DNA of 64,000 nucleotides from Hymenobacter busanensis (GTDB lineage: Bacteria; Bacteroidota; Bacteroidia; Cytophagales; Hymenobacteraceae), in assembly GCF_008727865.1 (NCBI RefSeq), contig NZ_VTWU01000006.1:62001-126000 (forward strand). The letters run 5' to 3'. A program made the position numbers and the translations under genes. The notes below the pieces were generated by a model, which searched no databases, had not been told where the DNA came from, and was given only the letters and a program-made list of their open reading frames with translations. This document shows positions 26,728 through 30,505 of the stretch, one piece after another. Each line of letters opens with the position of its first letter. Position 1 is the stretch's first letter.

Positions 26728-28125
26728 ATGGCTGCTCCCGTCACCTCCGTTTCTTCTTCCGCCAGCCCCGTGGCCGCTCGCAGCTACGCCGTGCCCATGG
26801 TGGCCATGACGTCCTTGTTCTTCCTCTTCGGCGCCGTCACCAACTTCAACGACGTGCTCATGCCCTATCTCAAGGACGTGTGCCGCCTCACCGATCTGGA
26901 ATCGTCGCTGGTGCAGTTTGCCTTTTTCGGAGCCTATTTTCTGATGTCATTGCCGGCTGGCTACCTGCTCAAGCGCCTGGGCTACCAGCGCGGCATTGTG
27001 GTGGGGCTGCTCGTTATGGCTGCGGGCGCGCTGCTGTTTGTGCCAGCCGCCAACTCGCGCACCTTCGGCATGTTCTTGCTGGGTCTGAGCGTACTGGGCG
27101 CGGGCGTTACGCTGCTGCAAGTGGCGGCCAACCCCTACGTATCGGTGCTCGGGCCGGCCTCGCGTGCCGCCAGCCGCGTGAGCATTGTGGGCGTGGCCAA
27201 CAACTTCGGCGGCACCCTATCGCCCCTGCTCGGCGGCATGCTGCTCTTCGGCGGCACGGCCGTGCTGAAAGCCCGCTTGGCGGCGCTGCCCTTGGAACAG
27301 CGCCTGGCCGAAGAAGCTTCGCTGGTGAAGTCCCCCTACATCGGCTTGGCGGTGTTTCTGGCGGTGCTGGCGGGCGTGTTTTCGCTGCTGAAGCTGCCCG
27401 AAATCGAAGGCCTGCCCTCCGACGACGAAGCCGACACCTTCCCCTCTGCCGCCGGGCGCCGCTCGGCCCTCGACTACCCGCATCTGGTGCTGGGCGTGGT
27501 GGCCATTTTCCTGTACGTGGGCGTGGAAGTCGGCCTGGGCTCGTTCCTGATTCGCTACGGCGAGGCCCAGGGCATTACGCAGCTCAGCGGCTTTACCCAA
27601 GCTTTGGTGCGCGGCCTGAACGTGGCCACCAACTTCGTGGCGGTGCTGCTGGGCCAGGCCCCCGCACCCATCGACACCACCGCCGGCTTCACCAAAGCCG
27701 TGGGCGCCGTGCTGGTGGCCTCCTACTGGTTCGGCTCCCTGGTAGGCCGCGTGGTCGGCATTCCGCTGCTCAGCCGCATCAACGACCGAAAGGCGCTGGT
27801 GGCAGTGTGCGCGGCCGGTGTGGCCTTTGTTATTGCCTCCATTCTCAGCCAAGGCGAAGCGGCGCTGTGGCTCATCGTGCTCTGCGGGCTGATGAACTCC
27901 ATCATGTGGCCCGTCATTTTCCCGCTGGCTATTAAAGGCCTCGGCCCGTTCACCAAGCAAGGCTCGTCGTACCTGATTATGGCCATTGTGGGCGGGGCCA
28001 TCGTGCCGTTGCTCATGGGCTGGGTGGCCACCAACGGCGGCGGGCTGCGCGTGGCCTTCGTCATTCCGGCGCTCTGCTACGCCTACCTGCTCTACTACGC
28101 CCTGCGCGGCTACCGGGTGCGCTAA
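26728..28125 (+). CDS. FucP/GluP-type sugar:H+ symporter (MFS)
   Basis: The 465 aa protein has 12 transmembrane helices and the signature of the FHS family (L-fucose/glucose/galactose permeases): FFLFGAVTNFNDVLMPYLK in helix 1, GAYFLMSLPAGYLLKRLGY, the LQVAANPYVSVLGP segment, and a C-terminal half ending with a PALCYAYLLYYALRGY helix. It sits alone, with an unusual palindrome array after it. The substrate is likely a neutral hexose; glucose/galactose versus fucose cannot be separated by eye. Confidence 0.9.
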   Translation: MAAPVTSVSSSASPVAARSYAVPMVAMTSLFFLFGAVTNFNDVLMPYLKDVCRLTDLESSLVQFAFFGAYFLMSLPAGYLLKRLGYQRGIVVGLLVMAAGALLFVPAANSRTFGMFLLGLSVLGAGVTLLQVAANPYVSVLGPASRAASRVSIVGVANNFGGTLSPLLGGMLLFGGTAVLKARLAALPLEQRLAEEASLVKSPYIGLAVFLAVLAGVFSLLKLPEIEGLPSDDEADTFPSAAGRRSALDYPHLVLGVVAIFLYVGVEVGLGSFLIRYGEAQGITQLSGFTQALVRGLNVATNFVAVLLGQAPAPIDTTAGFTKAVGAVLVASYWFGSLVGRVVGIPLLSRINDRKALVAVCAAGVAFVIASILSQGEAALWLIVLCGLMNSIMWPVIFPLAIKGLGPFTKQGSSYLIMAIVGGAIVPLLMGWVATNGGGLRVAFVIPALCYAYLLYYALRGYRVR

Positions 28126-28142
28126 GTTCGCTCACCAAACCG

Positions 28143-28286
28143 CCGCAACATGTTGCGGCCCCTTTCCGGCTGCCCGGAAGTCACCTGCAACCGGTTGTAA
28201 TACGCTTTGGGGCAGCCGAAACCCTATCCCAACTGGTTGCAGGAGCCTTGCGCCCGCCCGCAGCCCCATCCCAACGGGTTGGGATG
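28143..28286. repeat. Four CAACnnGTTG palindromes with an exact 42-bp period
   Basis: The dyads are at 28146-28155 (CAACATGTTG), 28188-28197 (CAACCGGTTG), 28230-28239 (CAACTGGTTG) and 28272-28281 (CAACGGGTTG). Start-to-start spacing is 42, 42 and 42 nt. The first and last are parts of longer perfect palindromes (16 nt at 28143-28158; CATCCCAAC..GTTGGGATG at 28267-28286) with different flanking bases, so the symmetry is kept though the sequence changes. The 42-bp units are only weakly alike elsewhere; units 3 and 4 match at 11 of 14 positions left of the core. Positions one period before and after hold no copy. No T-run follows, so it is not an ordinary terminator. Confidence 0.85.
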
Positions 28287-28325
28287 CACTAGCGCCCCAC
28301 CAAAGCGCCCCCGCGCCGCCTGCCC

Positions 28326-28333
28326 TATCTTTG
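28326..28333 (+). promoter_or_regulatory. -7 box TATCTTTG of murB
   Basis: An exact TAnnTTTG match is separated from the murB ATG by four bases (CTCC). With the usual geometry the transcript starts at the ATG, so the mRNA would be leaderless. Confidence 0.6.
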
Positions 28334-28337
28334 CTCC

Positions 28338-29381
28338 ATGCCTGCTGCTCCTACCCTGCTCCACCACGTCTCCCTGCGTTCCTACAACACCTTTGGCATC
28401 GACGCCCAGGCCCGCCTGTTTGCCGCCTTTGCCTCGGTGGAAGAGCTGCAGGCGCTGCTGCGGCTGCCCGAGGTGCAGCAGACCGAGAAGCTGGTGCTCG
28501 GCGGCGGCTCCAACCTGCTCTTCACCCGCGACTTCGACGGCGTGGTGCTCAAAAACGAAATCCGCGGGCTCGACCTGCTGCCCGGCGAAGACGACCGTAC
28601 CGCCTTGCTGCGGGCCGGGGCGGGCGAGTCGTGGCACGGCGTGGTGGAGTATGCGCTGGGCCAGGGCCTGTCGGGCCTCGAAAACCTCTCGCTGATTCCG
28701 GGCACAGTAGGTGCCGCGCCGCTCCAGAACATCGGGGCCTACGGCGTGGAGCTGAAAGATGCCTTCGACCACCTGGAGGCGGTGGAAATCAGCAGCGGGC
28801 AGCTGCGCGCGTTTTCGCACGAAGAATGCGGCTTCGGCTACCGCGAGTCGGTATTCAAAGGCCCGCTCAAAAACCAGTACATCGTAACGGGCGTGGTGCT
28901 GCGCCTGCGCCGGGAGCACCGCCCCAACGTGTCGTACGGGGCCATTCGCACCACACTAGAGGAAATGGGCATCAGCGCCGACGAGCCCACGCCGCAGCAG
29001 GTCAGCCAGGCCGTCATCAGCATCCGGCGCAGCAAGCTCCCCGACCCGGCCCAGATTGGCAATGCCGGCTCGTTCTTCAAAAACCCCGAGGTGTCGCAGC
29101 ACAAGTTTGAGGAGCTGAAAGCGCGTTTCCCCGATTTGCCCGGCTACCCCGTGCCCGGCGGCGTGAAGGTGCCCGCCGGCTGGCTCATCGAGCAGTGCGG
29201 CTGGAAAGGCCACCGTGCCGGCCCCGGCGGCAACTACGGCGTGCACGCCCACCAAGCCTTGGTGCTGGTGAACCACGGCGGCGCCACCGGGGCCGAAGTG
29301 CGCGCCCTGGCCGAAGAAATTATGGCGTCGGTGCGGGAAAAATTCGGGATTGAGTTGCACCCCGAGGTGAATATTCTGTAG
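28338..29381 (+). CDS. murB: UDP-N-acetylmuramate dehydrogenase
   Basis: The 347 aa flavoenzyme reduces UDP-GlcNAc-enolpyruvate to UDP-MurNAc in the cytoplasm, an essential step of peptidoglycan synthesis. It has the FAD-binding segment VLGGGSNLLF (53-62), SLIPGTVGAAPLQNIGAYG (118-136), and GNAGSFFKNP (241-250) with S245 as the expected proton donor. The long insertion after residue 150 and the total length fit type I MurB, as in E. coli. There is no other plausible start. Confidence 0.96.
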   Translation: MPAAPTLLHHVSLRSYNTFGIDAQARLFAAFASVEELQALLRLPEVQQTEKLVLGGGSNLLFTRDFDGVVLKNEIRGLDLLPGEDDRTALLRAGAGESWHGVVEYALGQGLSGLENLSLIPGTVGAAPLQNIGAYGVELKDAFDHLEAVEISSGQLRAFSHEECGFGYRESVFKGPLKNQYIVTGVVLRLRREHRPNVSYGAIRTTLEEMGISADEPTPQQVSQAVISIRRSKLPDPAQIGNAGSFFKNPEVSQHKFEELKARFPDLPGYPVPGGVKVPAGWLIEQCGWKGHRAGPGGNYGVHAHQALVLVNHGGATGAEVRALAEEIMASVREKFGIELHPEVNIL

Positions 29382-29539
29382 TCACCCGGTTCAGGGGCAC
29401 AATTGGCGGCATTCTTGGTAATGCACCATTGCGGAATGTGCATTCGTTTGGTCCGGCTGCTGGCAGTCTGGCTGAAAATCAGCATATTTGTTGCCCTTTT
29501 TGCCCTCCATTCCTTCTTTGCCCTTAGTCCTTGCTTTCA

Positions 29540-30505
29540 ATGAAGAAATTTACCCTGTTGGCCCTCCTGAGCAGCGGGGCTTTAGTGCCGGCCCACGCGC
29601 AGCAAGTCATTTCCCTGAACGCAGCCCGTGCGGCCGGTCCCGGCACCACCGTTACGGTGCGCGGCGTGGTAACGAATGGCGCCGAGTTGGGCTTCATTCG
29701 CTACGTACAAGACAAAGACGGCGGCCTGGCGGCCTTTTCCAATAAGCTGGAAGGCTTTGCCAACCTGGCCCCCGGCGACAGCGTGGAGCTGCACGGCACC
29801 CTCAAAAACTACAACAGCCTGCTGGAAATGGACCCCGTCATTTCCTTCAAGAAGCTGGGCCCCGGCCACCTGCCCAAGCCCGAAACCGTGCCCGTAGCCG
29901 ACATCGGCAAAGTGCTGAACGAAGCCCACGAAGGCCGCTTGGTGAAAGTGACCGGCGTGAACAAGCTCACCACCATGGGCGGCGCCGCCGTAACCACCAT
30001 TGCCGGCAACTTCAACTACCTCATCGACGGCCAGGCCGGCTCCCTCACCCGCATCAGCGTGTCGTCGGAAGGCGAAAAAGGGCTGGTGGGCAAGGATGTG
30101 CCCACCGGTCCGTTCGACCTGGTAGGCATTGTGGGCCAACACTCGCCGGCGGGCACGCCCAACGGCTACCAGATTCTGCCCCGCTTGGCGCTGGACATGG
30201 TGCGCGGCGGCGGTATGCCCCTGATTGTGAGCGAGCCGGTGCCGGTAGGCGTCACCAAAAACAGCATCACCATCAGCTACGAAACGCTGAACCCCGGCAC
30301 CACCAAGGTGGAGTACGGCGCCTCGCCGGCCCTGGGCGGCGTGCTAACGGATGCAACCCCGACCAAGCAGCACACGCTGCAGCTCACCGACCTGGAACCC
30401 GGCACCACCTACTACATCAAGGTCAGTTCGACCAACTCGGTAGGTACCTCTACCTCTGAGGCCGTGCCCATGATTACGGCCACCAAGAATACCCGGGCCC
30501 GCTAA
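29540..30505 (+). CDS. Exported OB-fold/fibronectin III protein
   Basis: The 321 aa product has a signal peptide (MKKFTLLALLSSGALVPAHAQ). An OB-fold-like domain follows (about 22-225; TVTVRGVVTNGAELGFIRYVQD, VELHGTLKNYNSLLEMDPV), then one fibronectin type III-like domain (about 232-318; SITISYETLNPGTTKVEYG, TYYIKVSSTNSVGTS). It ends there, without a type IX sorting domain. The next gene encodes the same two domains fused to a nuclease and sorting domain. TTG 29531 is also in frame, but ATG 29540 fits the signal peptide. Probably secreted; function unknown. Confidence 0.8.
   Translation: MKKFTLLALLSSGALVPAHAQQVISLNAARAAGPGTTVTVRGVVTNGAELGFIRYVQDKDGGLAAFSNKLEGFANLAPGDSVELHGTLKNYNSLLEMDPVISFKKLGPGHLPKPETVPVADIGKVLNEAHEGRLVKVTGVNKLTTMGGAAVTTIAGNFNYLIDGQAGSLTRISVSSEGEKGLVGKDVPTGPFDLVGIVGQHSPAGTPNGYQILPRLALDMVRGGGMPLIVSEPVPVGVTKNSITISYETLNPGTTKVEYGASPALGGVLTDATPTKQHTLQLTDLEPGTTYYIKVSSTNSVGTSTSEAVPMITATKNTRAR

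Follow-up and report, generated by a model that had tools for sequence, protein, structure and literature searches.

In partition and iteron systems (ParR/parC, TubR/tubC, StbA, omega, RepA iterons), which reside on plasmids and involve a partition ATPase or a role in replication, a helically phased array of sites lies beside the gene of a protein, and cooperative assembly has been proposed. Similarly, in type III toxin-antitoxin systems (ToxI-ToxN), a short tandem-repeat array is found directly beside a small protein gene. In the RAYT-REP/BIME system, the gene of a REP-associated tyrosine transposase is located beside its own palindromes (PMC2817692). We report a phased row of palindromes ahead of murB and its relation to arrays that adjoin the genes of a protein of ~230 aa, here called p230. 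This pairing of p230 genes with arrays is seen in Hymenobacter and some relatives, and a literature search, mostly at the level of abstracts, yielded no description of it.

The window, i.e., the whole 64-kb stretch of DNA analysed, carries between an MFS sugar-permease-like gene and murB the four CAAC-NN-GTTG palindromes of the original prediction, in steps of 42/42/42 bp (Table 1). The motif CAACNNGTTG was found six times in the window against 1.4 expected, a count reached in 0 of 100 shuffles, and Tandem Repeats Finder reported no array at the murB locus. Among the four copies, identity is 1.00 in CAAC/GTTG and 0.48 in the spacer. The first copy was rightly said to extend into a longer perfect palindrome; the last does so except at its two central bases (ATCCCAAC-GG-GTTGGGAT). 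Weaker intermediate dyads lie midway between the main ones and are clearer in another array of the host genome, on contig C7.

Table 1. Coordinates of the permease-murB locus in the window, with the palindrome of one further host array.
Feature	Positions	Strand	Remark
MFS sugar-permease-like gene	26728..28125	+	MFS_1 5.7e-25; array follows its 3' end
Dyad A1 CAACATGTTG	28146..28155	.	centre of an 18-bp perfect palindrome, 28142-28159 (GCCGCAACATGTTGCGGC)
Intermediate dyad B1 TTCCGG-N4-CCGGAA	28164..28179	.	centre exactly 21 bp past A1; by eye
Dyad A2 CAACCGGTTG	28188..28197	.	
Intermediate dyad B2, imperfect	28206..28221	.	21 bp past A2; by eye
Dyad A3 CAACTGGTTG	28230..28239	.	
Intermediate dyad B3, imperfect	28248..28263	.	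21 bp past A3; by eye
Dyad A4 CAACGGGTTG	28272..28281	.	arms lengthened to ATCCCAAC/GTTGGGAT (28268-28285)
-7-like element TATCTTTG before murB	28326..28333	+	candidate promoter element
murB	28338..29381	+	MurB_C 1.2e-29
Host C6 p230 array			palindrome GCCGTCTAGACGGC

The array occupies a 215-bp gap between the permease gene and murB. In seven other members of the genus that were sampled, this gap measures 101-117 bp and is filled, as judged by eye, by a GC-rich terminator-like hairpin; the array stands where these relatives have the hairpin. Conservation beside murB, which had been put forward as a check, is seen in H. gummosus, where a longer array (411 bp; L112) lies at the same position, but not in the seven others, in which the array is absent. 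Relatives carry TATCTTTG or the close TACCTTTG just before murB, with or without the array. We take TATCTTTG to be a -7-like promoter element; a sigma-70 scan near murB, which does not cover this type of promoter, found nothing. The array ends about 45 bp ahead of this promoter-like element. As noted originally, it resembles neither a standard terminator nor a CRISPR: a scan of 28050-28450 for a GC-rich hairpin followed by a T run returned 0 sites, and, unlike the identical repeats and unrelated unique spacers of a CRISPR, the conserved element over 59 p230 arrays spans ~14 bp with spacers 0.47 identical within arrays. Rfam gave no match at E 1 over 27000-29600, and PADLOC none above noise for p230.

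The suggested search for phased CAAC-NN-GTTG brought up further 42-bp loci both in the host genome and in relatives. When a spacer of 28-36 bp was permitted, the host genome contained one further place, on contig C7, where five copies, all exactly 42 bp apart, lie directly 3' of a p230 gene. With a spacer of 24-40, the pattern matched in 26 of 204 genomes of the family, and multi-copy arrays advance in steps of 42, rarely 41 bp; isolated pairs, at 42 bp or another spacing, were left out of the array count. A two-unit sequence model added a third host array, on contig C1, and arrays with other palindromes, e.g., CGGAGCTCCG in G037. On contig C36 of G001 (L042:6880-7110), CAACCGGTTG units give way to GGCACAGGTGCC units without any shift of the 42-bp register. 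In the bcp-tkt spacers of G056 and G131 (L183 and L193), words drift unit by unit with the 42-bp phase maintained.

Among genome contigs, 35 stretches have three copies, of which eight are Hymenobacter arrays. The other 27 three-copy CAACNNGTTG 42-bp stretches (non-Hymenobacter rows of L091-L125) look mostly like tandem repeats of near-identical units traversed by an open frame (66-1097 aa), a warning against the use of the bare CAAC-NN-GTTG pattern outside the order. On viral contigs, 46 stretches have the two-copy pattern, and a p230 profile scan of their ORFs found none.

The protein itself, basic (median pI 9.1) and predicted all-alpha, appears to be a fast-evolving helical protein without match in the libraries searched. 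For 22 diverse p230s, no credible relative was obtained from Pfam (best E 0.0042), NCBIfam (0.0047) or PADLOC (0.045), each best value coming from one member, nor from PDB sequences, where the best value (0.0024) belongs to a 31-residue haemoglobin match. Of two AlphaFold models, one was built from two sequences and the other from three; both are all-alpha, at modest confidence. The AF2 model is weak (pLDDT 70, pTM 0.43) and presents no recognised DNA-binding fold, and the best Foldseek match had an E of 0.56. In a VIA-align search with residues ~67-170 of model md92349020ac5, members of the Avd/S23 four-helix group took the first three places, at Z 8.1-8.2 where ~13 is advised for helical bundles.

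The p230 profile has 145 matches, some of them fragments only, in 44 of the 204 family genomes, with up to 11 in one genome; the host has three copies, on contigs C7, C6 and C9. At G060:C1:1954278-1954966, p230 is represented by two separate matches, of which one contains an internal stop, and looks like a broken copy. Among 390 genomes sampled from the order, four from two other families encode p230, and 395 genomes of the phylum beyond the order gave three marginal matches (E 2.7e-5 to 1.6e-4), beside which no array was seen and which were taken as noise. No match was found in 72,556 plasmid records with two p230 queries or in phages with one. The neighbours of 23 p230 loci, read by eye, include no common partner and no identified ATPase partner.

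Several arrays, that of contig C7 included, lie directly 3' of the p230 stop codon, and this linkage is well established by counts over 105 p230 genes, no two of them alike over the first 150 residues (97 belong to the family, eight lie outside it). One criterion applied throughout (period 41-43) places an array no more than about 0.5 kb away from 85 of the 105, downstream in 73 cases, upstream in 12 and called on both sides in none; four of the 20 genes without array by this criterion have no usable 3' flank. Nine further loci yielded seven arrays, all upstream. When any period of 30-60 was allowed, 85 of the 87 p230 flanks that passed thresholds had a period of 41-43. Control flanks were positive in 13 of 240 cases, all attributed, by locus, to loci known to hold arrays. 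Among the perfect-dyad distances that measure 20-60 bp, 83 of 104 are 41-43 bp in the 3' flanks of p230, 9 of 15 in its 5' flanks (all nine from four upstream-array genes) and 0 of 1 in the 3' flanks of 40 window ORFs.

The linkage is found in three families of the order. All 12 upstream-array genes, some of them from two further families of the order, fall within a single 17-row group of the tree (support 92/89), which contains no "down" gene, L293 and L294 being called not "down" and L331 and L337 sub-threshold. The linkage thus looks old, the side of the array having changed between clades. The notion that divergent p230s are devoid of arrays was rejected, as most of their arrays lie upstream. 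In G251, from another family of the order, the upstream arrays L335 and L334 exhibit 96 and 92 % tandem identity and are apparently young, unlike the eroded Hymenobacter arrays. Upstream of the third host p230, on contig C9 (L331), a sub-threshold 42-bp repetition (0.52-0.53) is possibly a decayed array. A search for own-motif sites, indicative of autoregulation, upstream of 59 p230 genes found none (own 0.190 vs 0.185).

Conservation was assessed on 59 downstream arrays of at least four units each (315 units), a set that includes the stretch downstream of L294, which is not that gene's real array. It peaks at offsets 1-6 on both sides of the dyad, the two central bases being relaxed. Identity of the half-sites (offsets 1-6) is 0.81 within arrays and 0.33 between arrays, which equals background, and that of the spacers 0.47 and 0.32, slightly underestimated where spacing varies because units were aligned on the dyad; the core is more identical than the spacer in 57 of the 59. 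Such a profile is the one expected where a symmetric dimer reads two half-sites. Recent duplication is excluded as its source, since spacers would then be equally alike, and so is a need for just any palindrome, since words would then drift within an array. The earlier statement that symmetry and spacing are kept as sequence drifts is right between arrays, whereas within an array the palindrome is mostly kept as well. Periods of 41/42/43 are maintained across very diverged arrays; within 27 of 39 arrays the spacing does not vary, and in some clades it is 43, so the period seems to belong to the protein lineage.

A simple tandem repeat, in which all unit positions decay alike, was rejected on the same difference between core and spacer. 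A neutral minisatellite of palindromic units, whose symmetry would be refreshed by template switching, could account for the degenerate spacers, for the unit-by-unit drift in L183 and L193 and for the excess of paired symmetric changes over independence, which structure-based models predict likewise. We nevertheless regard it as most improbable, given the better conservation of half-sites, the concentration of passing p230 flanks on a period of 41-43 and the linkage to a gene; the degenerate minisatellite, one of three roles first envisaged for the window array, is therefore disfavoured.

Palindromes differ between p230 lineages (e.g., GGTACGCGCGTACC, TGCACCGGTGCA, CCGCATGCGG, AAAACAGCTGTTTT, CTTCTTAAAAGAAG), a few words, such as CAACCGGTTG, recurring in distant ones. 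Paralogs within one genome mostly have different palindromes, which makes one genome-wide reader unlikely. Conserved half-sites, drifting spacers and divergence between arrays together point to array-specific recognition of duplex DNA, for which the adjoining p230 would be the simplest array-specific factor and hence the putative reader. The more alike two p230s are, the more alike their palindromes tend to be (Mantel r 0.30, 0 of 2000 permutations), though unevenly (palindrome similarity 0.31 at 50-60% protein identity), and this correlation may come from shared descent alone; mutual information between residues and bases, computed to locate specificity residues, is dominated by phylogeny (effective N 33), and covariation between the halves of a unit gave no signal (0.45 vs 0.46-0.49).

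Whether duplex DNA or RNA is read can be approached from the centre of the dyads. In 292 dyads chosen on offsets 2-7, offset 1 is paired at 0.75 and offset 0 at 0.43, with a background of 0.25; a first count gave 0.83 Watson-Crick pairing at offset 1, on dyads chosen partly on that position. Offset 1 lies inside any hairpin loop; its pairing would close a loop of two bases. G.T mismatches exceed A.C mismatches when offsets 1-7 are pooled (157 vs 109), but the strand-specific wobble signal expected of RNA pairing is not significant by array (34 vs 23, p 0.19), control positions behaving alike (36 vs 27). Four turns of B-DNA take 42 bp, and two take 21 bp. Pairing within loop positions, the lack of significant wobble and the match of 42 and 21 bp with four and two turns favour duplex DNA.

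The main rival holds that the arrays work as RNA, forming hairpins in tandem within 3' UTRs or leaders, which p230 would bind or which would act as serial terminators. Indeed, most arrays lie at transcribed 3' ends (73 of the 85 after the stop codon), ten p230 loci (L212-L217, L222, L223, L227, L228) have their first unit within a terminator-like stem with a T run, and the window array stands in for a terminator-like hairpin, its transcript being somewhat more stably folded than shuffled sequences (z -2.41). Moreover, some Avd/S23-type four-helix proteins, the nearest folds to p230, handle RNA. Against these observations stand the palindromy that continues where a loop must sit, the by-array wobble result, the negative terminator scan and Rfam search at murB, the upstream position of the array in one clade and a uniform 42-bp spacing for which RNA offers no rationale. 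We thus consider the RNA reading unlikely, including the row of hairpins suggested at first for the window; the cooperative protein-binding array, the remaining role proposed then, would fit best among the three, given conserved half-sites, a kept period and palindromy into the loop.

Orphan arrays, to which that of the window belongs, almost always occur in p230-bearing genomes. The window array and the p230 array of contig C7 have CAACNNGTTG in common, and the two arrays of H. gummosus, one of them 3' of a p230 gene, likewise share a palindrome. A match with a p230 array of their own genome is also seen for the orphans of G001 (contig C21 and the CAAC part of C36), G042, G037, G060 and G133, and partially for the host C1 array; agreement among the CAAC cases is biased, since they were found with a CAAC-trained model. 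Orphans of G056, G131 and G121 are mixed or partial, those of G056 and G131 mixing palindromes unit by unit, and G039 has a decayed array without p230 match. At the bcp-tkt locus, an array is present in 8 of 30 genomes, all eight with p230, whereas p230 occurs in 9 of the 22 without array, one of them (G026) having a fragment only (Fisher p 0.004); this test is blind to the palindrome, covers the best bcp matches of the 204 genomes and ignores kinship.

Other orphans have no match among the resolved p230 words of their genome, namely CAACCGGTTG in G084, GGTACGCGCGTACC in G117 and GGCACAGGTGCC in the second segment of G001 C36; G001 and G084 each have one p230 array with an unreadable word. The prediction of a cognate p230 for the GGCACAGGTGCC segment failed, as four of the five p230 words of G001 are readable and all differ; the fifth p230 (C36:31227) has a 42-bp repeat whose word is unreadable. 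Such unmatched orphans would be expected if another host regulator or a nucleoid protein read the arrays, the p230 linkage being incidental. This is very unlikely in our view, because differing palindromes in one genome would call for one reader per array and because the linkage extends over three families. The failed prediction, the unmatched orphans, the lack of an autoregulatory site and the covariation result limit confidence in recognition in trans more than confidence in the linkage.

With somewhat better than even confidence, we lean towards reading the murB array as a row of binding sites for a dimer that recognises a specific DNA sequence, most likely the C7 p230 acting in trans. The putative dimer would read two half-sites of ~6 bp placed 2 bp apart (CAAC-NN-GTTG and flanks), with a site every four helical turns and a weaker dyad every two. 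Owing to this four-turn repeat, bound dimers would align on one face of the DNA and could form a cooperative, filament-like complex; p230 as binder, its dimeric state and the cooperativity are what we infer from the conservation profile and the spacing. Each p230 copy and its adjoining array would have drifted to a palindrome of their own, and orphan arrays would recruit the matching p230 in trans. Since the array sits at the terminator's position and stops shortly before the promoter-like element, our guess is that the complex at this locus is a roadblock standing in for the permease terminator, and that it protects or tunes the promoter of murB.

More tentatively, and with well under even confidence, the p230-array modules of the order may be self-addressed nucleoprotein elements of a new class. 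Each p230 would have a private word, repeated 3-9 times with a site every four turns, both next to its gene and in orphans near housekeeping genes (murB, tkt); the filament formed there would serve as transcription roadblock, chromosome landmark or landing pad. A family unmatched in libraries is tied in 85 of 105 cases to a precisely phased array whose word varies by gene, and these gene-specific palindromes suggest what may be a private protein-DNA address system. If p230 reads the arrays, nature would have run a large-scale experiment on the diversification of DNA-binding specificity in the absence of cross-talk, in which each protein is encoded next to its targets. The arrays would then also offer parts for orthogonal DNA binding, the many mutually non-interfering copies per genome forming a natural set of orthogonal DNA-address systems. 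This raises the questions of why a genome with up to eleven p230 matches would keep several private address systems, and why orphan copies sit by cell-wall and central-metabolism genes.

A selfish or mobile module similar to RAYT-REP, in which p230 would copy or spread the arrays and itself and orphans would be its non-autonomous offspring, has also to be weighed. The patchy occurrence of p230 with up to 11 matches per genome, some of them fragments, the orphans in p230-bearing genomes and the presence or absence of arrays at orthologous spots fit this scenario. However, three libraries gave no Y1/HUH or other credible family match, few arrays per genome came out of the searches run, spacers within most arrays are too diverged for recent copying, and the plasmid (two queries) and phage (one query) searches were negative, which leaves such a module improbable. 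RAYT-REP/BIME resembles p230 and its arrays in its paralog-specific palindrome, in copies elsewhere in the genome and in alternating dyads at regular spacing (PMC2817692). It differs in that inverted REPs flank the gene on both sides and are many dispersed single elements, whereas p230 arrays lie on one side only (73 down, 12 up), keep a strict 42-bp period and are few per genome. Moreover, a Pfam search at E 1 with the 22 diverse p230s gave no match to Y1_Tnp. A Y1 transposase as partner was discarded, the two host Y1_Tnp genes (C6:59302 and C6:559694) lying >140 kb from the nearest p230 (C6:408753) and far from the arrays.

With type III toxin-antitoxin systems, p230 shares a repeat array directly adjoining a small protein gene; on the contrary, its repeats are DNA-palindromic and mostly downstream, the protein is predicted all-alpha, and no family of the ToxN/CptN/TenpN type is among the Pfam, NCBIfam and PADLOC matches of 22 p230s. 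The likeness to Avd and S23 (23S intervening-sequence) proteins is one of fold, the three top VIA-align matches staying below the advised Z; they have no sequence match to p230, and we know of no association of these proteins with arrays. Plasmid partition and iteron systems share with p230 a gene adjoining a helically phased array, a system-specific sequence and a proposed cooperative assembly. They differ from p230 in that the latter has no plasmid matches with two queries, lies on large contigs with several paralogs per genome, and is accompanied by orphan arrays and by palindromes set 42 bp apart.
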